A stretch of 64,000 nt of DNA, taken from assembly GCA_003724185.1 (NCBI GenBank), contig RHGM01000003.1, positions 124,001 to 188,000 of the forward strand. The letters are read 5' to 3'. This DNA is from Porphyrobacter sp. IPPAS B-1204. Its GTDB lineage: Bacteria > Pseudomonadota > Alphaproteobacteria > Sphingomonadales > Sphingomonadaceae. Position numbers and translations under genes: made by a program. Positions 10,788-38,959 of the stretch are shown here, piece after piece (the first letter of the stretch is position 1; each line of letters begins with the position of its first letter). Below the pieces are notes generated by a model. The model saw only the letters and a list, made by a program, of their open reading frames with translations. It was not told the origin of the DNA and searched no databases.

Positions 10788-10803
10788 GCCACCTGTCGGT
10801 GGC
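10788..10803. repeat. Small hairpin with TGTC loop
   Basis: GCCACC at 10788-10793 and GGTGGC at 10798-10803 form a perfect 6-bp stem around a four-base loop. It directly abuts the much larger inverted repeat that begins at 10803. No T-run follows on either strand, so a terminator role is not supported. Confidence 0.5.
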
Positions 10804-10893
10804 GCAGACCACCCGCCCCGCCTCCCCACCCGGCCGCCATAGATTAGTGGTACTATCAGCGGCCGGGTGGGGAGGCGGGGCGGGTGGTCTGCG
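10803..10893. repeat. Perfect 35-bp inverted repeat with 21-base spacer
   Basis: The arms 10803-10837 and 10859-10893 are exact reverse complements over 35 bases and are almost pure G/C. The 21-base spacer is AT-rich and contains a second small palindrome (TAGT at 10845-10848, ACTA at 10852-10855). Right after the repeat, 10892-10913 can fold into a small stem closed by a GAAA loop. The structure lies between yajC (minus) and tRNA-Pro (plus). No poly-T follows either arm, so it is not a standard terminator. It could be a dispersed repeat, a leader structure or a mobile-element relic; a genome search for the arm would decide. Confidence 0.85.
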
Positions 10894-10980: not shown

Positions 10981-11057
10981 CGGGACGTAGCGCAGCCTGG
11001 TAGCGCATCACACTGGGGGTGTGGGGGTCGGAGGTTCGAATCCTCTCGTCCCGACCA
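10981..11057 (+). tRNA. tRNA-Pro (anticodon GGG)
   Basis: A 77-base cloverleaf. The acceptor CGGGACG pairs with CGTCCCG, the T arm GGAGG-TTCGAAT-CCTCT is canonical, and the 3' end encodes CCA. The anticodon loop is CTGGGGG with GGG at 11015-11017, reading CCC/CCU proline codons. Nothing co-transcribed is evident upstream. It points away from the yajC operon. Confidence 0.96.
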
Positions 11058-11318
11058 GTGGACAATTTTCCTTCCTGTCGGTCGCCGAGCATTGCGCGGG
11101 CCACCAGGCCCGCTGGCGGTGAAGGCTGAGCCGCCCCTCGCGCCGGCCGGAGCTTTCTGCATTCGCACACGAGAAACCCGGCCGCCGCCGCAAGACCGTG
11201 CAAGCACCCATCGCTTGCGGCGAGGCAGACCCAATCTGCAACGGCCCGCACAACACGCACAAAACCCGTTGCCACCCGCCCGCCCGATGGCTAAAGCGCC
11301 CCCCTGCCCAAAAGGCGC

Positions 11319-11394
11319 GCCGCTTTAGCTCAGTCGGTAGAGCACATCATTCGTAATGATGGGGTCACGTGTTCGAGTCACGTAAGCGGCACCA
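11319..11394 (+). tRNA. tRNA-Thr (anticodon CGT)
   Basis: A 76-base cloverleaf. The acceptor GCCGCTT pairs with AAGCGGC, the D arm contains AGCTCAGTCGGTAGAGC, and the anticodon stem CATCA/TGATG encloses TTCGTAA with CGT at 11352-11354. The T arm is CACGTGTTCGAGTCACGT-like and CCA is encoded. The 261 bases between the two tRNA genes contain no supportable gene. It is the last stable-RNA gene before the DUF11 locus, which makes it a candidate integration point for that locus. Confidence 0.96.
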
Positions 11395-11866
11395 CTCCCT
11401 AAAAACTCATTTTTTATCAAAGACTTAAGGCGCTTTCGCGCCCAATGTACCGCACAGTTGTGTCACCCTCGCGCCGTTGCCGGGTGTCCTGCTCACACTT
11501 GCCAACCGTTTGGCGGCACGCTGTGCGCCTGACGCTGCAGGGTGTTTTGCAAGTGCGCGGCAGAAGTGGTCCGACGCCGTCCCCGGAGACCTTGCGTGTG
11601 AGCCTTGCGGTTTAACACCGCCCTCGTTTTACAGGCGTTTTGGCCGCCATTCCGCATTTTGGAGCTGATAGATCCGTCGCTGGACTTCGCCCGCCCTGTC
11701 GCCCCAATACACGAACTTTCCTTACATTTCAGCGGGCAACCTGCCCGTGCAGAACGGCTCAGGATGCACGCTCACCGTCGTTCGAGGCGACAGGAGGCTG
11801 TCCGAAACACCATTTTACAATCGTGGCTAACGAAAAACTAACCTTCCCTGCGTAATTCATCGCAGC
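11395..11866. other. 472-base non-coding interval upstream of the DUF11 locus
   Basis: No gene is supportable here. The short open frames have no ribosome-binding site and read as random Arg/Pro/Ala-rich peptide. A small hairpin (GGCGC-TTTC-GCGCC near 11430) and an AT-rich stretch just before 11867 are visible. The interval should hold the promoter of the five-gene locus, but no clear -35/-10 pair was identified. If the locus is an island inserted beside tRNA-Thr, its left junction would lie here. Confidence 0.4.
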
Positions 11867-12862
11867 ATGACAACATACCCTCGCCTTTACGTTTCGTCAG
11901 CTTCCATCATGGGCACCGCGCTGTTCGCAGTGGCGCTGTCCTCAGCACCGGCATGGGCCGGCGGTGTGACCGCCGGCACATTGATCGAGAACACCGCCGT
12001 CGCCAATTATGAAGAGGCGGGCGTACCTCGCAGCATCAATTCGAACACCGTCACGGTGCGCGTTGACGAATTGCTGGATGTGACGCTGGCATCGCTTGAT
12101 CCCGGCCCCGTTGTGGCGCGCCCGGGCAATGCGGTGCTGACGTTCGAGCTTACCAATCAGGGCAACGGGCCCGAAGCCTTCCGCCTGCTCGCCAACACGG
12201 CGGTCGGCGGCAATGATTTCGACGTTTCTTTTCGTGCCATTGCAATCGATAGCAATGGCAACGGTATCTATGATGAGGGGATCGACGAGATCCTCGCCGC
12301 ACCGCAGACCACGGCAATTCTAGCGCCGGATGCAGCACTGACGATATTCGTGCTCGTGACCGTGCCCGATGGCGTGGGCGATGCCCAGACCAGCAATGTC
12401 GACCTTACCGCAGAAGCGGTGACCGGCAGCGGCACGCCCGGAACCACCTTTGCGGGCGCGGGCGTTGATGGCGGCAACGCGATTGTCGGCAATACCGGCG
12501 CGCAGGCCGTGGCGCGTGGCAGGCTGATCAACACCGTCGCCGGCGTCGAACTGATCAAGTCGGTTACGCTGCGCGATCCGTTTGGCGGCACCAGCGCTGT
12601 TCCCGGCACGATTGCCACCTTCACCATCGAAGCGCGGGTCAATGGCACCGGATCGGTCAACAATCTGGTGGTGACCGACGCGATTCCGGATGGGACGACC
12701 TACGTGCCCGGCACGCTCGCGCTGGATTCAGCGGCGCTTACCGATGCTGCCGATGGCGACGCGGGCGCGGCCTCGGACGCCGATGGGATCGCCGTGAATC
12801 TCGGGGAAGTGGCAGCCGGAACGCGGCACGCCGTTACCTTCAGCGTTACAGTTGACCAGTGA
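11867..12862 (+). CDS. Secreted DUF11-type repeat protein (locus gene 1)
   Basis: A 331-residue exported protein. A Sec signal peptide ends near residue 31 (MGTALFAVALSSAPAWA; the internal Met15 at 11909 is an alternative start). The mature N-terminus carries AGTLIENTAVANYEE..SNTVTVRVDELLDV, the strand pattern that opens DUF11-family proteins. There is a calcium-loop-like DSNGNGIYDEGIDE segment in the middle. Residues about 235-331 are a DUF11-like beta domain (FTIEARVNGTGSVNNLVVTDAIPDGTTYVPGTL). No membrane anchor or sorting motif is seen. The gene leads a five-gene same-strand locus and is probably an extracellular or surface-associated beta-sandwich protein. The exact function is unknown. 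Confidence 0.8.
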   Translation: MTTYPRLYVSSASIMGTALFAVALSSAPAWAGGVTAGTLIENTAVANYEEAGVPRSINSNTVTVRVDELLDVTLASLDPGPVVARPGNAVLTFELTNQGNGPEAFRLLANTAVGGNDFDVSFRAIAIDSNGNGIYDEGIDEILAAPQTTAILAPDAALTIFVLVTVPDGVGDAQTSNVDLTAEAVTGSGTPGTTFAGAGVDGGNAIVGNTGAQAVARGRLINTVAGVELIKSVTLRDPFGGTSAVPGTIATFTIEARVNGTGSVNNLVVTDAIPDGTTYVPGTLALDSAALTDAADGDAGAASDADGIAVNLGEVAAGTRHAVTFSVTVDQ

Positions 12863-12912
12863 TACGTTCCAGAATTCGACAATAAAAACAGATAATAAAT
12901 CGGGGAAGCACT

Positions 12913-13395
12913 ATGAAGTCGATCACCAAACTGATGCTGGCCGCAGCCGCCGCGCTTGCGTTGCCCGCCGTGCCGCTTGCGGCGCAGAACAACAGCGCGA
13001 TCGCGCTTACCGGCGACGTCAAGGCGGTCAAGGTCATTACCGACGCCGACGGCAAGGAACGCACCGATCTGGTGGAGCCGAGCACGATCGTGCCGGGTGA
13101 TCGCCTCGTTTTCGGCACGGACTACGCCAACAAGGGCAACGAGGTTGTGACCAATTTCACTGTCACCAACCCGCTTCCCGCAGCCGTCCGCCTCGCGCCC
13201 GATGCCGATCCGGCGCTTGAGGTGTCGGTAGACGGAGGCAAGACCTTCGGCGCCATCGCCGCGCTGACCATCGCAAATTCAGACGGGACCACCCGTCCCG
13301 CCGCCCATGCCGACGTGACCCACGTCCGCTGGGTGCTGGCAAGCATCGCACCCGGAGCATCGGGGCGACTTACCTATCCAGCCATCATCCGCTGA
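12913..13395 (+). CDS. Small secreted DUF11-like protein (locus gene 2)
   Basis: A 160-residue protein with a Sec signal peptide (LMLAAAAALALPAVPLAAQ, cleavage near residue 25). One beta domain follows with the DUF11-like progression VPGDRLVFGTDYANKGNEVVTNFTVTNPLPAAVRLAP...VRWVLASIAPGASGRLTY. It is about the size of a single repeat unit, so it could be a subunit or partner of the larger locus proteins. A GGGGAAG site precedes ATG 12913, 51 bases after gene 1. I recognise the fold type, not a named family. Confidence 0.75.
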   Translation: MKSITKLMLAAAAALALPAVPLAAQNNSAIALTGDVKAVKVITDADGKERTDLVEPSTIVPGDRLVFGTDYANKGNEVVTNFTVTNPLPAAVRLAPDADPALEVSVDGGKTFGAIAALTIANSDGTTRPAAHADVTHVRWVLASIAPGASGRLTYPAIIR

Positions 13396-13466
13396 CCAGC
13401 GGGAGATAACCGCCACGTCCTGCGGGCGGAAAGTCAGACGCGGGGCAAACACTCAGGACCAGAACC

Positions 13467-14519
13467 ATGAAGACCACCAAGCAGTTGCTGGGTGCGGTGA
13501 GCGCGTTTGCGCTTGTCGCAATGACCAGCGCCCCTGCCCTGGCCCAAGGGACCAGCGCAGGATCGACCATCCGAAACGAAGTGAGCGTCACCTATAATGT
13601 CGGTGGCGTGACCCAGAACGCGGCAACGGCGAGCGACGAGTTCACCGTTGACCAGAAGGTCAATGTCCTCGTCAACTTTGTCGGCAGCGCGACTGTCGTC
13701 AATCCCGGACAAGACGGCGCTGCCATCGCCTTTGACGTCACCAACCTGTCGAACAGTACAGTCGACCTCGATCTTGCAGCGGCGCTGCGGAACGGGACGG
13801 CGGGCAATATCGACAATTTCCGCATCTATCTCGATGCCGACAATGACGGCGTGTTGAGTGCTGTTGAAGAAGCTGCAGGCCCGATCACCTTCCTTGATGA
13901 AGTTGGCAACGCAGCCAATGGCGTCACCGTGAAGGTCATCGTCCTGGCTGACATCGGCCTTGGCGCTGCCAACGCCGATATCTTTGACGTGACGCTGACC
14001 GCCAACGCCCATGCGGGTGGCACTGTCGGCACGCTGGGCACCGAACTGGTTGAATCGGCGGGCAACAGCAGCGGCATCGACACGGTGCTGTTCGACGGCC
14101 AGGGCGATACCGATCAGGCCCGCGACGGTGCGTTCTCCGACACCGGCACCTACACCGTGGCTGGCGCCGTAGTGACCGTGGCCAAGTCCAGCCGCGTTGT
14201 CAGCGATCCGGTCAACTTCGAGAACAACCCGAAGGCGATTCCGGGCGCAACCGTCGAATACTGCATCACCGTGGCCAACGCCGCGGGCGCTGCGGCAGAG
14301 GCGACCGATGTGGCCGTGACCGACGATCTTCCGTTCGATGTGACCTTCATCGCAAACTCGATCTTCGTGAACGGTGATGGAAGCTGCGCCAACGGCGCAC
14401 CCGGTGGCAGCTTCAGCGAAGGAACCGGCGTTAGCGGGAAGGACCAGGTGCTGGGCGACCTCGACAATGTCGCGGCGGGTCAGACCCGTTCGCTCTACTT
14501 CCGGGTCGTGATCGACTAA
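13467..14519 (+). CDS. Secreted DUF11-type protein (locus gene 3)
   Basis: A 350-residue exported protein. The signal peptide ends at ALAQ (residue 27). The opening AGSTIRNEVSVTYNVGG matches the start of the gene 1 product. A calcium-loop-like DADNDGVLSAVEEAAG segment lies near residue 125. Residues about 245-350 form a DUF11 domain beginning with VVSDPVN..NPKAIPGATVEYCITV. Two Cys residues in this domain (YCITV, GSCANG) could form a disulfide. The SDPVN...NPKAIPGA block recurs in the gene 5 product, which ties the two together. It ends 21 bases before the 1713-residue gene. Confidence 0.8.
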   Translation: MKTTKQLLGAVSAFALVAMTSAPALAQGTSAGSTIRNEVSVTYNVGGVTQNAATASDEFTVDQKVNVLVNFVGSATVVNPGQDGAAIAFDVTNLSNSTVDLDLAAALRNGTAGNIDNFRIYLDADNDGVLSAVEEAAGPITFLDEVGNAANGVTVKVIVLADIGLGAANADIFDVTLTANAHAGGTVGTLGTELVESAGNSSGIDTVLFDGQGDTDQARDGAFSDTGTYTVAGAVVTVAKSSRVVSDPVNFENNPKAIPGATVEYCITVANAAGAAAEATDVAVTDDLPFDVTFIANSIFVNGDGSCANGAPGGSFSEGTGVSGKDQVLGDLDNVAAGQTRSLYFRVVID

Positions 14520-14540
14520 GCCCAGATCCGGACATTAGTC

Positions 14541-17500
14541 TTGCGTGTTTCCCCCTCTTTGCGGCGCGTGGCAGCAGCACTCTTTGCAGTGCTGCTGCCA
14601 TTCGGCGTGCCGCAAGAGGGGGTCAGCGCCCAAGGCATTGATAACGCGGCGGTGCGGTCCATCACCAACATCGCCGAAGCCACCTGGGAGGCTGACGGCA
14701 CGCGTCGGCGGATTGTCAGCAATCCGGTCCGGTTCGATGTCAGCCTTACCCCGCCTGCGCCCCCTGCGATCCGGGTTTTCCGGCGCGCGCCCGGCACAGG
14801 CTCCGAACTGGTCTATCGCCCGCCCAGCTGCTCTGTGCCCGGCGGTCCGCTTCAGCTTAACCGCAGCTCCGCGGTCGCCAGCACCACCCCCGGTTCCGGC
14901 GCGGTTTCGGTGCTCAATACCGCCATCGTCCAGCCAACTGACCGGCTGCGCGGGGGCGAGCCGCTCTTTTTCGAAGTGACCGCGGCCAGCGCCAACCGTG
15001 ATCCCGCCGCAATCGACAGCCTCACCGTGGTGCTCACCAGCGCCGAGGGCGACCGTGAGACCATGACCGTCTTCGAAACCGCCCCGGACAGCGGCGTGTT
15101 CACCGGCGTGATCGACACCTTCCGCATCCCCCCGCCCGTCGTGCAGGAAGACTGCCGCCTTAGCGTCGGGCCGGATTCGCGCATCACCGTGGCCGCCATG
15201 AACCCGGGCAGTGACGATGTTCTGGTGCAGATCGACGTTGCCGTGCTGGTCGATCCCTTTGGCGTGGTGTTCGACAGCGAAACCGGCGAGCCGGTCGACG
15301 GCGCCCGCATCACGCTGGTCGATGACGCAACCGGCGCGCCAGCCACGGTCTTTGCCGAGGATGGCGTAACATCATGGCCATCCAGCGTTATTTCGGGGAC
15401 GAATGTCACCGATGGCGCGGGCCGCAGTGTGCCGATGGGGCCGGGCGAGTTCTGGTTTCCGCTCACCGCACAAGGCCGTTACCGCCTCGCGGTCGAGCCG
15501 CCCACCCCCTACACCGCCCCTTCAGCCGCCCCGCGCGAGCTGCTGGCGCGCGTCACCCGCCCTGACGGCAGGCCCCATGTGATCCGCGAAGGATCGTTCG
15601 GCGATGCCTTTGTGCTCGACAGCCCGATTCCCTTCGAAGTCGACATCCCGGTTGACCGTCCGGGGATCGATCTGGCGATGACCAAGACCGCATCGCGCAC
15701 CAATGCCGCGCCCGGCGATGTTGTTTTCTACACCGTGACCGTGCGCAACGCCGATCCATCGCGGATCAAGCGGGCTGTGACGCTCACCGATACGCCCTCG
15801 CGCTGGCTGCGCCTGCGGGCAGACACGATCCGCATCAACGGTGCCGCCGCCCCGCAAGCGGTGGCGATCGCCCCCGATGGCCGCGTTCTGACGATCGCGC
15901 TCGGCGATCTCGCCGCCGGAGCCAGCGCGCGGGTGACCTATGCCATGACCGTGCGCCCCGATGCCCCTCCGGGCCGTGTGCTCAACGATGCGCTCGCGCG
16001 GGACGGGCTTGGCCGCCAGTCACGCGCCAGCGCGGCGGTTGATCTGGTGCGTGACGGTATCGCCGACCGGATGACCATCATCGGCCGGATCACGGCTGGC
16101 CCCTGCACCTTCGACGAAACACAGCGCACCGGCATTGCCGGGGTTCGCGTGATGCTCGAAGACGGCAGCTTCGCGGTCACCGATGCCGATGGCCGCTATC
16201 ACTTCGAAGGCGTGGTGCCCGGCACCCACGTGGTGCAGGTCTCGCGCATGACCCTGCCCGAAGGCGCGCGGATGGTGGATTGCTCGGCATCGACCCGCAA
16301 TGCCCGCAGCGCTTCGTCGCGCTTCGCAATCGGACAGGGCGGCAGCCTGGTCGTCGCCGATTTCCACGCTGTTCTGCCCGAAGCCGCGAGCCCCGCCCCG
16401 GTCGCTGCTCCTGCCCCTGAGGCAGCGCCGGTCAAGCCCGCCAATCCGGCCGAGCCCAGCACGGCGCCGACCGATTTCCTCGCGCTGGGCGATGGCGAAG
16501 ACGGCTTCCTTGCCCCCGCCGCAGATGCCAACCCGCGCGCGCCTGCCGTGCGCGTCGCCATCCGCCACCGCCGCGGGCAGAGCGTCGAACTGCTGGTCGA
16601 TGGCAAGCCGGTCGACAGCCTTGCCTTTGATGGCACCCAGACCCCGCAAAAGGGCAAATATGCCGTCAGCCAGTGGCGCGGGGTGCCGCTGATCAATGAA
16701 CGCACCGTGCTCGAAGCGCGGATCCTCAACAGCTTCGGCGAAGTCGCCAAGACCTTCACCCGCGAGGTGTTTTTCACACGCGCCCCGGCGAAGATCGAAT
16801 TCCTGCCTGACCTGTCCAACCTTGTCGCTGATGGCCGCACCCGTCCGGTGGTGGCAATCCGCGTGCTGGACCGGAACAACCGCCCCCTGCGTGAGGGGAT
16901 TTCGGGCAACTTCAGGCTCAACGCGCCGTACCAGAGCGCCGAGCAGATTGATCGCCAGCAGCTCGACCAGCTGACAGGCACCGCTCCGATCGCTGCGCGC
17001 TGGGTGGTCGAGGGCGAGGAAGGCATCGCCCGGATCGAACTTGCGCCCACCATGGTCAGCGGCTCGCTGCGCCTCGATTTCGCCTTTGACGATGGCAACA
17101 TCACCCGCCATCAGGAGCTTGAGGCGTGGATCGAGCCGGGCGATATCGAATGGACCATCGTGGGCCTTGCCGAAGGCACGGTCGGCGCGCGGTCTGTCGC
17201 TGACAACATGGAGCGCGCCGGGCAGTTCGACAGTGATCTGGGCGATGATGCGCGGGTCGCTCTTTATGCCAAGGGCCGGGTGCTGGGCAAATACCTGCTC
17301 ACCCTCGCCTATGACAGCGCCAAGCAGCGCGATGACCAGCGCGTGCTGGGCGCGATTGATCCGCAGGCCTATTACACGGTGTTCGGCGATGCCTCGGCCC
17401 GCCAGTTCGATGCCGCCAGCCGCGAAAAGCTGTATGTCCGCATCGAAACCGCAACCTTCTATGCGCTTTACGGCGACTTCCAGACCGCCTTCAACCAGAC

Positions 17501-19682
17501 GCGCCTTGCCAATTACAACCGCACCGCCACCGGCGTGAAGGCCGAGGCCCGGGTCGGACAGATCAAGGCGCAGGGCTTTGCCGCCGAGATCGCCAGCCGG
17601 TTCCAGCGCCAGGAAATCCAGGGCCAGGGCATTTCCGGACCCTACAGCCTCGCCAGCCGCCGCCTCCTGCCCAATTCCGAACGCGTGACGATCGAAGTGC
17701 GTGACCGTTTCCGGCCCGAACTGATTGTCACAACCCGCGAACTCACCCGCTTTACCGATTACGACATCGATCTGCTGGCCGGCACGATCAGCTTTGCCGC
17801 GCCGGTGCTGAGCCGCGACGAAAACCTCAACCCGCAATTCATCGTCATCGAATTCGAGACCGACGGCGCAGGCGAGGCTGAGATGAATGCGGGCGTGCGC
17901 GCTGACTGGACCAGCGCCAATGGCCGCGTGCGGATCGGCGCGAGCGCGATAACCGATGCCGGCCTCGAAGGGCGCGACGGTCAGGCGCAGCGGACCGAGA
18001 TCGGCGCAGTGGACCTGCTCGCCCGCGTGGGTGACAACACCGAAATCCGTGCCGAACTCGGGCTGAGCCGCCGTGAAGGAGAGGCTGCGACGGGCTGGCT
18101 GGTCGAAGCCCAGCACCAGACCGGCAAGCTGGATCTGCTTGGCTATGCCCGCCAGATCGATGAGGATTACGGCATCGGCCAGCAGAACGTGGCTGAGCGT
18201 GGGCGCCGCAAGGTCGGCGTTGATGGCCGGGTGCTGCTGAGTCAGGAGCTGAGCTTTATCGGCAGCCTGTGGCAGGACGAGGCTCTCGCCCAAACCACCC
18301 GCCGCCGCGCTGCGCAGGGCCAGCTGGCGCTGACCCGTCAGCAGACCGACCTTCGGCTGGGGCTTGTCCATTTCAACGACCGCCTGGCCGATGGCGCAAG
18401 TGCCACATCGACCGTGCTGGAGACAGGCGCGACCCAGCGCCTGTTCGACAACAAGCTGGAGCTTTCCGCAGGCACGGCAATCGCGCTTGGCAAGTCCGAA
18501 AGCCTCGATCTGCCCGCGCGCCACCGTCTCGGCGTGCGTTATGCGGTCACGCAGGACGTGCGGCTTGTCGGCACCTATGAACTGGCCGACGGCGAAAACC
18601 TCAAGTCACGCCAGCTGCGTGGCGGGATCGAGGTTGCCCCGTGGCGGGGCGGACAAGTGGTGACCACGCTGGGCGAGGAAACGATTAGCGAAAACGGCAC
18701 CCGCAGCTTTGCCGCCTTCGGCCTGTCGCAGACGCTCGCCCTGAGCCCGGCGCTGACGATCGATGCCACCATCGACGGCAACCGCACGCTTGGTGGCAAT
18801 CCGGGGACCAACGGGGTCATCAATCCTGCCCAACCCCCGGCCAGCGGCGGCCAGATCACCGGCGGTTTGCTGTTCGAGGATTTCACCGCCGTCACCTTTG
18901 GCGCGGCCTGGCGCAAGGACCGCTGGAGCGTGGTTGCACGCGGCGAGGTGCGTGACGGTAAGACAGCCGACCGCAAGGGCTTCACCTTTGGCGCAATCCG
19001 CCAGCTTGGCGAAGGCAGCCTTGTCGGCTCTGGCGCGACCTGGACGCTGTCCGAAGCCGCAGGCGGGGCGAAGGCCGAGATTCTCGATGCCAGCATCGCC
19101 TTTGCCCACCGTCCGGATGCCTCGCCGCTGGCGATGCTCGGGCGGATCGAATTCCGCAGCGACCAGATCACCGGCGGGGTTGCAGGTGAAATCGGCGGGG
19201 CGGGCGGCGCCGGACGCACGGCGCTGGTGGTCGATGGCAATGCGACCTCGCGCCGGCTTGTGGGCAGCCTTTCGACCAATTTCTCGCCGCGCGGGACAGT
19301 GGATGGTGCCGAAGTGCGCCGCCATGAAGTCAGTCTTTTCCTTGGCGCCCGGCACAATTTCGACCAGTTCGAAGGCACTGAATTTTCAGGCACCAGCGTG
19401 CTGGTCGGCACGGACGCGCGCATCGGCATCGGCGAACGGTTTGAAATCGGCGCCAGCGCCACCGTGCGGTCCAACCTCAACGACAACACCACCAGCTTCG
19501 CTTATGGCCCGACCATCGGCGTCTCCCCGGTGAAGGACATGCTGCTGACCGTGGGTTACAATATCGACGGTTTCCGCGACGGCGATTTCGGCCCTGCGCG
19601 CAACACCGACAAAGGCGTGTTCGCAGCGGTGCGCATGAAGTTCGATGCCGACAGCTTCGGCTTTCTTGGATTGGGACGATAA
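14541..19682 (+). CDS. Giant multidomain secreted protein with probable outer-membrane beta-barrel end (locus gene 4)
   Basis: A 1713-residue protein. It has an N-terminal signal peptide, an opening DUF11-family motif ([22 protein letters not shown]), and a beta domain at about 140-240 ([27 protein letters not shown]). A carboxypeptidase-regulatory-like domain follows near 250-330, then a DUF11 domain at about 375-505 and an SdrD-B-like domain at about 515-610 ([25 protein letters not shown]). A Pro/Ala linker at about 612-645 leads to beta domains ending in [23 protein letters not shown]. Residues about 1110-1713 are alternating hydrophobic/polar strands that end in FGFLGLGR, as expected for a barrel. 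The start is TTG 14541 with only a weak ribosome site. Likely an outer-membrane anchor or scaffold of the locus; this role is inferred. Confidence 0.8.
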   Translation: [1713 protein letters not shown]

Positions 19683-19685
19683 GCG

Positions 19686-21623
19686 ATGCGCGCCGTCCCC
19701 GTCCTCCGGTTTGCTAACCGTGTGTTTACCATGATTGCCTACACATCCGGCATGGTCGCCTGCAGCTTTCAGCTTCGCCGTCTGCTTGCTCTGCTGCTGT
19801 TGGTGGGAGGGCTGATGTGGAGCCCTGCCGCACAGGCGCAGAGCTGCAGCCAGGCGGCCACCCAAGGCTCCGCGCCAGCCAGCTGGCAGACCTATTGCTG
19901 GCTCAACTTCGTCAATTACAACGATGCAACAGCGCGCACAGCAGCGGGGCAGAACCTCAGCTTCACCTTGCCTGACGGATCCACCCTCACCTTCAACGCG
20001 CGGGTTACGGGAACCACCACTGGCACGGCGTATAACGCGGTGGCCGCACCTTCATGGAGCGGTTCGGCAGTTGGCAACAGTTCCTTCAGAGACATCCCCG
20101 GACGCCCCGTGCTCTACACAGCAAGTGCCGGCACGCGGACGATCGCGCTGTCCAACATCACCATCACCCCGCCGGCCGGCGCCAGCGCCACGGTCTATTC
20201 CTTCGTCGTCGCCGATGGTGAATCAAGCAATGATGGCGAGGCGCTGCGCATCAGCACCAATGGCGGCGCATGGCAGCTGCTCGATTCCGTACCGCCCATC
20301 AGCGGATCAAACTTCCCGCCAATTTCGGGGATCGGCACCAGCAATGTGAACATCACCGGTGCGCCAGGGACTGTCGGGGCCTATATCGTCGGCAGCAACA
20401 GCCCGACCAGCGTGACGGTCGAGACCCAGGCCGGGGGCCTGCAAGGGGTGATGTTCGCGGTCCGCTTCGCCACGATCCGGCTGCAGACAACCATCGTCGG
20501 CTCGCGCTTCAACAGTGCTGACCAGTTCCAGTACCAGATCGCATCGACCACGAGCGGCTCCGCGATCATCAGCGGCACCACAACCGGATCGGGCAATGGC
20601 CCCTTTTCCACCCCGGCGCTCAATCTGTCGGCAGGGATGCCGATCACCCTGCGCGAAACCATGGCAGCGGGCAGTGTCAGCGCCTTGGCGCAATACAGCA
20701 CGACGCTGACCTGCGTGAACACCAACGGGGCGACAAGGCCAGGCCTCCCCAACAATCTGGCCACCACCAATTTCAACATCGGCCAGCTTCAGTTTGGCGA
20801 GTTTCTGGTTTGCACCTTCGTCAACGGCGGGCCGCCGCGGCTGCGGCTGCGCAAGCTGCTGGGATCGGGCGGACGGCAGTTCGGCGGCGACCAGTTCACG
20901 ATCCGCATCCGCGACGGTGAGACTGTGGTCGCCACACGCACCACCACAGGCAGCGGCGGCACTGTGAACAATGGTGACACGGGGCTTGTCCAGCTGAGCA
21001 GCGGGCAACCCTACACCCTCGACGAAATTGCCGCTGGCGACACCATCCTCGCCAATTACAACGCGTCCATCGCCTGCAGCAACGCGACCAGCGGATCGGC
21101 AACATCGCTGCCGACCAGCGTGGGCGGGACGATCACCCTGCGCCCCGGCGACACAGTCACCTGCACAATCACCAACACCCGCCGCGCAGCAGCATTGCTG
21201 ATTGTGAGCAAGACCAGCACTGTGATTTCCGATCCGGTCAACGGCACCGTCAATCCCAAGGCGATCCCCGGGGCGATCGTGGAATACACGATCAACGTGC
21301 GCAATGCCGGCGGCGGCACTGTCGATTCCAGTTCGATCATCATCCTTGACGAGATGCCCGCCAACGCAGCCTTTGCCACCGGCACGCCCGTGACCTTTGC
21401 CAACGGCACGCCCAGCAGCCAGCTAAACGCCTTCAACGCCGCCACGATGGTGCGCTTTTCTGCGGCACCGGAAGGCGCGGCGCCCTATACCTACACTCCG
21501 GTTGGCGCGTTCGACGCCAATGTGCGGGGCATCCGGATTGCACCCACCGGCACGATGGCCGCAGCAACAAGCGCGACCAACCAGCCGAATTTCACCATCC
21601 GCTTCCGGGCAAGGGTGCAATAG
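19686..21623 (+). CDS. CshA-like fibrillar adhesin-related protein with DUF11 domain (locus gene 5)
   Basis: A 645-residue exported protein starting 3 bases after the giant gene. A long N-terminus with a hydrophobic core (LLALLLLVGGLMWSPAAQAQ) ends near residue 51. The first mature domain (SWQTYCWLNFVNYND, then LSFTLPDGSTLTFNARVTG and YSFVVADGESSNDGE) resembles the non-repetitive domain of CshA-type adhesins. The middle has two prealbumin-like repeats (each with tTLtCvN or ASIACSN and a CTFVN/CTITNT end). The C-terminus is a DUF11 domain with VISDPVN..NPKAIPGAIVEYTINV, shared with gene 3. No sortase motif is present, as expected in a Gram-negative. A surface adhesin role is plausible but inferred. 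Confidence 0.78.
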   Translation: MRAVPVLRFANRVFTMIAYTSGMVACSFQLRRLLALLLLVGGLMWSPAAQAQSCSQAATQGSAPASWQTYCWLNFVNYNDATARTAAGQNLSFTLPDGSTLTFNARVTGTTTGTAYNAVAAPSWSGSAVGNSSFRDIPGRPVLYTASAGTRTIALSNITITPPAGASATVYSFVVADGESSNDGEALRISTNGGAWQLLDSVPPISGSNFPPISGIGTSNVNITGAPGTVGAYIVGSNSPTSVTVETQAGGLQGVMFAVRFATIRLQTTIVGSRFNSADQFQYQIASTTSGSAIISGTTTGSGNGPFSTPALNLSAGMPITLRETMAAGSVSALAQYSTTLTCVNTNGATRPGLPNNLATTNFNIGQLQFGEFLVCTFVNGGPPRLRLRKLLGSGGRQFGGDQFTIRIRDGETVVATRTTTGSGGTVNNGDTGLVQLSSGQPYTLDEIAAGDTILANYNASIACSNATSGSATSLPTSVGGTITLRPGDTVTCTITNTRRAAALLIVSKTSTVISDPVNGTVNPKAIPGAIVEYTINVRNAGGGTVDSSSIIILDEMPANAAFATGTPVTFANGTPSSQLNAFNAATMVRFSAAPEGAAPYTYTPVGAFDANVRGIRIAPTGTMAAATSATNQPNFTIRFRARVQ

Positions 21624-21711
21624 GCCGACCCGGCATCTGGTGCTGCATTGATGCCCTCCCCCACGCAAGGCTCCGCTGCCCCAACGGTGCGCGGATCACG
21701 GGAGGGATCAA

Positions 21712-38882: not shown

Positions 38883-38959
<77 letters not shown>

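Follow-up and report, generated by a model that had tools for sequence, protein, structure and literature searches.

What five neighbouring genes for exported, DUF11-containing proteins might build is the question raised by a locus in Porphyrobacter sp. IPPAS B-1204. The locus lies in a 64,000-nucleotide stretch of DNA (assembly GCA_003724185.1, contig RHGM01000003.1, positions 124,001 to 188,000; hereafter the window), and its genes, like their domains, the two upstream boxes and the tRNA-Thr gene described below, are on the plus strand. We call them A (11867..12862, 331 amino acids), B (12913..13395, 160 amino acids, a single DUF11-like domain), C (13467..14519, 350 amino acids), D (14541..19682, 1713 amino acids, TTG start) and E (19752..21623, 623 amino acids from its likely start or 645 from position 19686). 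Checking the open reading frames bore out the original prediction as to five same-strand genes, their lengths and the gaps of 50, 71, 21 and 3 nucleotides between A-B, B-C, C-D and D-E, the last with E taken from 19686. Sec-type signal peptides, judged by eye, are present in all five translations. We give an even chance to the reading that the locus encodes a surface display system for fibres or adhesins that depends on D, with E as its exchangeable component.

Four of the genes form a recurring unit. Scanning named genomes for D returned 33 loci from Erythrobacter, Porphyrobacter, Qipengyuania or unresolved sphingomonad metagenome-assembled genomes, apart from two titled just Alphaproteobacteria. 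A-B-C precede D in the same order and on the same strand in 30 of the 33; the other three (L036, L048, L053) are short contigs without the upstream part and were left out of the A-B-C count. Loci L006-L033, which largely duplicate L034-L066, were not added to the named-locus counts. The same order and strand were kept in 20 of 20 fetched loci of the wider sphingomonad family, which were chosen for having D (one of them, L129, is apparently L062, with the same scores). Because the order is kept across genera, the gene set is beyond chance. Among 246 order-level genomes, a barrel profile (A1) found matches in 59, 55 of which contain a frame of at least 1600 residues, and a B profile (A4) found matches in 81, including all 55 with the long D frame, 54 of which have B at a distance of 4.1-4.9 kb from the barrel match. 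The Fisher test on these order-level counts ignores the kinship of the genomes. Four genomes with short barrel frames only (G019, G191, G213, G218) gave no match to the B profile. A lack of joint conservation, which the original prediction had named as the main finding that would speak against it, did not appear, since the genes are kept together in other genomes. The five-gene unit itself has to be narrowed, as A-B-C-D are constant and E is swapped or missing. We found no description of the A-B-C-D(-E) gene set in the open-licence literature.

The products of A, C and E share a domain at their extreme C-terminus. TIGR01451, the model of the DUF11-type repeat (curated cut-off 24 bits), scores 36.2 bits on A, 36.8 on C, 30.4 on D and 32.7 on E, and stays below the cut-off on B at 20.9. 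The claim that all five genes are DUF11-like thus stands for A, C, D and E and falls short for B, while describing the products as built of DUF11 domains was an overstatement: D has one DUF11 domain and a predicted barrel half, and E consists mostly of CshA- and SpaA-type sequence with a DUF11-type tail. A joins an N-domain akin to that of C to a terminal DUF11-type domain (12512..12859, residues 216-331). C, which an AlphaFold2 model (pLDDT 91.4, pTM 0.78) resolves into two Ig-like domains, has its terminal domain at 14154..14516 (residues 230-350), and that of E, at 21186..21620, is common to both kinds of E described below. Profile comparison related these ends to one another, with probabilities of 96.9 for A against C, 99.5 for C against E (71 columns) and 99.8 for E against the other kind of E (45% identity, 133 columns). 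It further related the A end to the DUF11 domain of D (85.0), the N-domain of A to that of C (98.3) and the first 30 residues of A to those of D (88.8). Unrelated pairs mostly scored below 6 in these comparisons, and a 15-column match of B to the other kind of E reached 23; as the latter shows the noise level, the kinship of B rests on its Pfam and NCBIfam matches. Orthologs end in tetrapeptides that hardly vary, of the VTID/VTIN type in A and C and of the AIIR type in B (the C-terminus and box counts exclude L030, L031, L036 and L045, which hold partial genes, and the profile set was built without L052). All 10 TIGR01451 matches of the Porphyrobacter genome fall into three loci, each with a D-family barrel gene: five in the window block, two in a second A-B-C-D block at C7 and three in a type II locus, a class of relatives that we return to below.

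E combines this constant tail with changing heads. Its product in the window carries a CshA_NR2 adhesin domain (19890..20459, residues 69-258, E-value 3.8e-19, 70.1 bits against a cut-off of 24; Pfam), in keeping with the fibrillar-adhesin look noticed earlier, followed by Pfam matches to SpaA_3 at residues 263-380 and SpaA_4 at 414-499; a PDB sequence search returned nothing for E. Across 27 loci with sequence past D (L039, where the contig ends, is not counted), E is of the CshA type in 15 and has another head in 12, and all 12 of the latter match the E C-terminus, so that the terminal domain is kept. Four of these 12 were scanned for domains; P_proprotein appeared in two and a DUF11 domain in all four. 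At L154, a locus outside the order, the same tail follows an Ice_binding head. A constant terminal domain with swapped heads suggests sorting. In one genome (G228, L226) we observed a natural in-frame deletion in which A is kept, the start of B is joined to the terminal domain of E, and C and D are gone.

D is the candidate receiver of such a signal. Its N-terminal half consists of small beta domains, among them a DUF11 domain (15669..15992, residues 377-484, E-value 1.2e-9; Pfam) and a CarboxypepD_reg / SdrD-like domain (16122..16247, residues 528-569, E-value 9.5e-12), and its C-terminal half is a predicted barrel (17154..19646, residues 872-1702). The AlphaFold2 model of the last 840 residues, built from 54 sequences, reached a pLDDT of 78.2 and a pTM of 0.75 and contains 38 predicted strands of at least eight residues. 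We predict with modest confidence that the C-terminal half is an outer-membrane barrel, its closure and the number of strands within it being uncertain. This prediction agrees with the outer-membrane anchor look that had been ascribed to one product. In relatives of D, the terminal strand is followed by a short tail such as RFKFD. The best hit of D in a PDB sequence search (E-value 0.019) was an LPXTG protein matching the DUF11 part, and nothing useful emerged. A barrel as wide as predicted might let through chains that are already folded in whole or in part.

The top Foldseek match of the D barrel is SlpA (8ae1, E-value 2.1e-9, TM-score 0.20), which brings in the main rival explanation, possible but less probable: D may be a static anchor and not an exporter, linking the outer membrane to further layers in the manner of Deinococcus SlpA. 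A, B, C and E would then form an envelope layer, reaching their place by another export route, or would be periplasmic. An OmpA protein, on the peptidoglycan side, accompanies D in Acinetobacter, and an N-terminal half of Ig- and carboxypeptidase-like domains would suit anchoring as well. However, D has no SLH domain, a head-swapped E with a constant tail is easier to understand as bearing a common sorting signal, and the TM-scores are too low for choosing a relative. It is improbable, in our estimate, that D instead serves as a channel taking up or expelling a large substrate, with A, B, C and E as its accessory binding proteins. A barrel protein with accessory exported proteins would look this way, and distant D relatives are publicly annotated as TonB-dependent receptors, but the Pfam models of a TonB-dependent receptor plug or barrel did not match D, nor did those of SLH, SprA_N, usher or Slam (E-values up to 1). 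Moreover, E has its CshA adhesin domain, and the E head at L154 is Ice_binding and not a transport domain. Display by way of D remains the reading that we carry forward.

We class the block with outer-membrane barrel systems for surface proteins; it fits none of the sequence models of known systems. In line with the original proposal of a system outside the known families, none of the five products matches usher, PapD-type chaperone, SprA_N or SLH models (Pfam, E-value 1 or better). In chaperone-usher pili (FimD/PapC), too, Sec-exported Ig-like subunits meet an outer-membrane barrel and the adhesin comes last in the gene set. The barrel of FimD has 24 strands, whereas D is predicted to have about 38, and in the block every cargo protein ends in the terminal domain and neither an usher nor a PapD-type chaperone is matched. 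Membership of this class was not adopted, with no match to the usher family model (PF00577) in D and none to a PapD-type chaperone in the five proteins by Pfam. Type 9 secretion likewise pairs a very large barrel with cargo ending in a beta domain; PMC9581022 gives the SprA barrel 36 strands and equates SprA_N with PF14349. In contrast to that system, D has no SprA_N match, and the Porphyrobacter genome has no match to the type A sorting domain of the cargo tail (TIGR04183, E-values up to 0.1). The Foldseek match of the D barrel to SprA has an E-value of 3.7e-6 and a TM-score of just 0.19. With both sequence models unmatched, membership of type 9 secretion was not adopted either. S-layer membership was set aside because no SLH domain is among the Pfam matches; D resembles the Deinococcus S-layer protein SlpA in its large barrel and in the head of the Foldseek list, and differs in sitting within a multi-gene block with a swapped adhesin. 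For type 11 secretion, Pfam, which covers Slam, gave no Slam barrel match in D at E-values up to 1. Streptococcal CshA-type fibrillar adhesins share CshA_NR2 with one kind of E, but not the DUF11-type tail, the Gram-negative setting or the other heads found in 12 of the 27 loci. Throughout, the absence of a fold from the structural-match list was not counted as evidence against that fold.

Relatives occur outside the order, with barrel profile A1 matching 55 of 398 genomes of a phylum sample. The order is A-B-C-D-E at L154, the last being an E-tail gene, and E-A-B-C-D at L155; B, A-tail proteins and D are present at L149 and L157. L154 has a D protein identical to one that its source names Zetaproteobacteria, and other near D relatives, among the best 120 of 1472, are named Gallionella, Nitrosomonadales, Sulfuritalea, Thiobacillus and Methylococcaceae. 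Plasmid p4 of Acinetobacter haemolyticus (L219) carries a B-like gene, a D-like gene that begins with a fused C-type N-domain, an OmpA gene directly after it, and a DUF11 gene. The small DUF11 open reading frames before this D-like gene look broken or short. The gene order at L219 makes the Acinetobacter fil operon ('type III pilus') a candidate relative, with FilA-F possibly related to B, A/C, D, OmpA and E; no Acinetobacter D-like protein among the matches listed bears a Fil name.

The Porphyrobacter genome itself contains, at C7:182000-198000 (L067), a second A-B-C-D block whose D is 55% identical to that of the window. In type II loci (at C7 of the same genome, L068-L071 and others), the two halves of D are separate genes and the neighbours end in DUF11 domains; at L161, also of type II, the separate N-terminal-half protein carries an OmpA domain. 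Because the barrel is C-terminal and OmpA partners occur at L161 and on the Acinetobacter haemolyticus plasmid, the N-terminal half of D would lie in the periplasm. A LysM-FecR gene stands beside L069, L070 and L071, and CHASE2 genes beside L069 and L070. The type II barrel of L068-L071 ends in ...LLGKF-like residues, with a CHASE2 kinase or cyclase nearby. Together, L068-L071 look like a sensor-coupled sister system.

Upstream boxes indicate how the genes may be controlled. One CtrA-like box precedes A (11827..11842, CTAAC-N6-CTAAC, TAAC at -39) and another precedes E (19714..19732, CTAACC-N5-GTTTACCAT). Within 150 nucleotides upstream, TAAC-N7-TAAC occurs before A in 26 of 53 loci, 21 times at -39, and before neither B (0 of 54) nor C (0 of 53); the 33 named loci (683,620 bp, both strands) contain 24 copies, all of them the A-upstream ones. 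The wider pattern T[TA]AC-N7-T[TA]AC is found just twice on both strands of the 64-kb window, at 11828 (-39 of A) and 19715 (-37 of ATG 19752). Downstream of D, where many loci have no E, it is present in 22 of 51, and in 20 of these 22 an ATG or GTG follows at exactly 37 nucleotides. Read as codons, the stretch with the box before E uses GCT in 20 of 29 cases, TTT in 25 of 29 and TTC in 0 of 29, set against 19 GCT among 214 Ala codons and 52 TTC among 72 Phe codons in D of the window. This bias points to a constraint on DNA and not on protein, and hence to an E start at 19752. E therefore probably begins at that ATG, behind its own promoter-like box, and the D-E gap, 3 nucleotides when counted from the open reading frame start at 19686, becomes 69. 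The single five-gene transcript once envisaged is not supported, given this conserved box of E, present in most Erythrobacter loci.

A stricter pattern, YTAA-N7-YTWACCAT, has five sites in the 3.55-Mb genome and none when reversed. They precede E, a CheY-like gene between CheW and CheB, an MCP gene, a LuxR-type gene and a gene without Pfam match; the A site of the window ends in CCTT and does not fit. PMC6180460 and PMC3692519 give CtrA sites as TTAA-N7-TTAA(C) and TTAACCAT, and the window boxes differ from TTAA-N7-TTAAC by one mismatch per half at a conserved position. CtrA is the likely regulator, as judged from these motifs. A different regulator may bind the conserved upstream box, making the motility link accidental, and the mismatches of the A box (CTAA-N7-CTAACCTT) to TTAA-N7-TTAAC would allow this; we rate it the lesser prospect, since in its spacing (N7) and its tail (TAACCAT) the box agrees with the CtrA sites of PMC6180460 and PMC3692519, and two of the four other genomic matches precede CheY-like and MCP genes with a reversed control of 0. 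A scan for sigma-70 promoters and terminators gave 8 terminators against a shuffle mean of 8.4 and 4 promoters against 1.4 (weak), and found neither box. Scores of a 10-base box at single loci were also close to those of shuffles; the box stands out only through its fixed position across loci.

The surroundings suggest how the block came to its present place. Two tRNA genes stand upstream, as first reported, tRNA-Pro(GGG) at 10981-11057 and tRNA-Thr(CGT) at 11319..11394. In blastn of the window against G001 (L200), homology stops at 11061 and resumes at 21709, delimiting an inserted segment (11062..21708, no strand assigned) that comprises tRNA-Thr and the A-E block between tRNA-Pro and xdhC. 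In five of ten same-genus genomes (G001, G022, G003, G025, G034), yajC, tRNA-Pro and xdhC are adjacent and the site is empty; in G026 and G006 tRNA-Pro adjoins genes located further on in the window, and in G030, G011 and G028 other genes occupy the site. Neither the block nor tRNA-Thr was found at this site in any of the ten. The block lies elsewhere in G003, G025, G034, G030, G011 and G028, and G001 and G022 have no match; tRNA-Thr(CGT), matched once in each of the 9 genomes searched, is at other places in all 8 relatives. The empty sites imply that tRNA-Thr and the block reached this place together, by transfer or rearrangement. Acquisition as a block beside a tRNA gene, an early suggestion, is thereby supported by the empty sites and the homology break. 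In three loci of other genera (L059, L131, L137) the block follows tRNA-Pro beside yajC, which points either to repeated use of the slot or to loss of the block among relatives. The idea, drawn from these three, that the tRNA position is ancestral was dropped given the empty sites, which show a variable slot and a block that has moved.

A search for repeats (13 or more bases) of either tRNA returned nothing near the block and, in the whole window, just a second tRNA-Pro at 38934, and composition gave no foreign sign (third-position GC content, GC3, 0.72-0.79 in the block genes, 0.83 in secD/secF and 0.81 in xdh). Directly after tRNA-Thr in G003, an open reading frame (L210:1663-3075) could, by eye, be a phage-type integrase. 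Between yajC and tRNA-Pro, a 35-bp near-perfect hairpin at 10803-10891 is also present in G001 (L200); its DNA fold reaches -62 kcal/mol against -26 for shuffles (z -12.4), and it may either terminate transcription strongly or be a small mobile palindrome.

Put together, these elements suggest a surface display system whose core is A-B-C-D and whose exchangeable cargo is E, an adhesin probably located at a tip or on the surface. D would form a very wide outer-membrane barrel with its N-terminal beta domains, DUF11 included, hanging in the periplasm. A, C and E would leave the cytoplasm by Sec, each with the common DUF11-type domain at its extreme C-terminus; this domain may be the address recognised at D, after which the three proteins would be placed outside. 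With two Ig-like domains each, A and C may make up a stalk or coat and E its variable outer part, and B, with its single DUF11-like domain, may act as a chaperone, a cap or an adaptor. Two CtrA-like promoters, one before A and one before E, would in Erythrobacter couple the system to the motility programme.

Several observations weigh against this scheme. The barrel model has blocks with a pLDDT as low as 42, which makes its confidence modest, and its best fold matches reach TM-scores of about 0.2. A fold search with the C model returned general Ig-like folds, nothing more specific. In profile comparison, the E end reached just 47.2 against the DUF11 domain of D, the N-domains of C and D scored 0.6, and B is weakly tied to the terminal domain (22.8 against the A end, 0.4 against the C end). 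Several family members have no E, including the second block at C7 in the 3.4 kb seen downstream, and the TAAC-N7-TAAC box is absent before A in 27 of 53 loci. In G215 the order is A-C-D with no B in between and B elsewhere, 26 of 246 genomes have B without a long D frame, and in four fetched cases (L223, L224, L225, L227) a solo B adjoins an unrelated E2 gene. Solo B genes suggest that B is not exclusive to the block or was left behind after block loss. The same 2-oxoacid dehydrogenase E2 gene also adjoins the full block in L141, L145, L147 and L228.

We put forward only tentatively that this is a categorically new proteobacterial outer-membrane secretion-assembly system, having a single-chain barrel at least the size of SprA, a C-terminal DUF11-type address, swappable CshA-like, P-domain or ice-binding heads, and CtrA placing it under cell-cycle or motility control. 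Of the surface proteins labelled 'unknown', DUF11 proteins count among the most frequent, and here they gain a giant-barrel partner, a fixed four-gene core, a swapped adhesin, a probable regulator and a cultivable and harmless genus, turning a vague annotation into a testable system. If the barrel size is true, D would be among the widest single-chain barrels, and together with the address domain it would point to a secretion route that may be missing from current catalogues.

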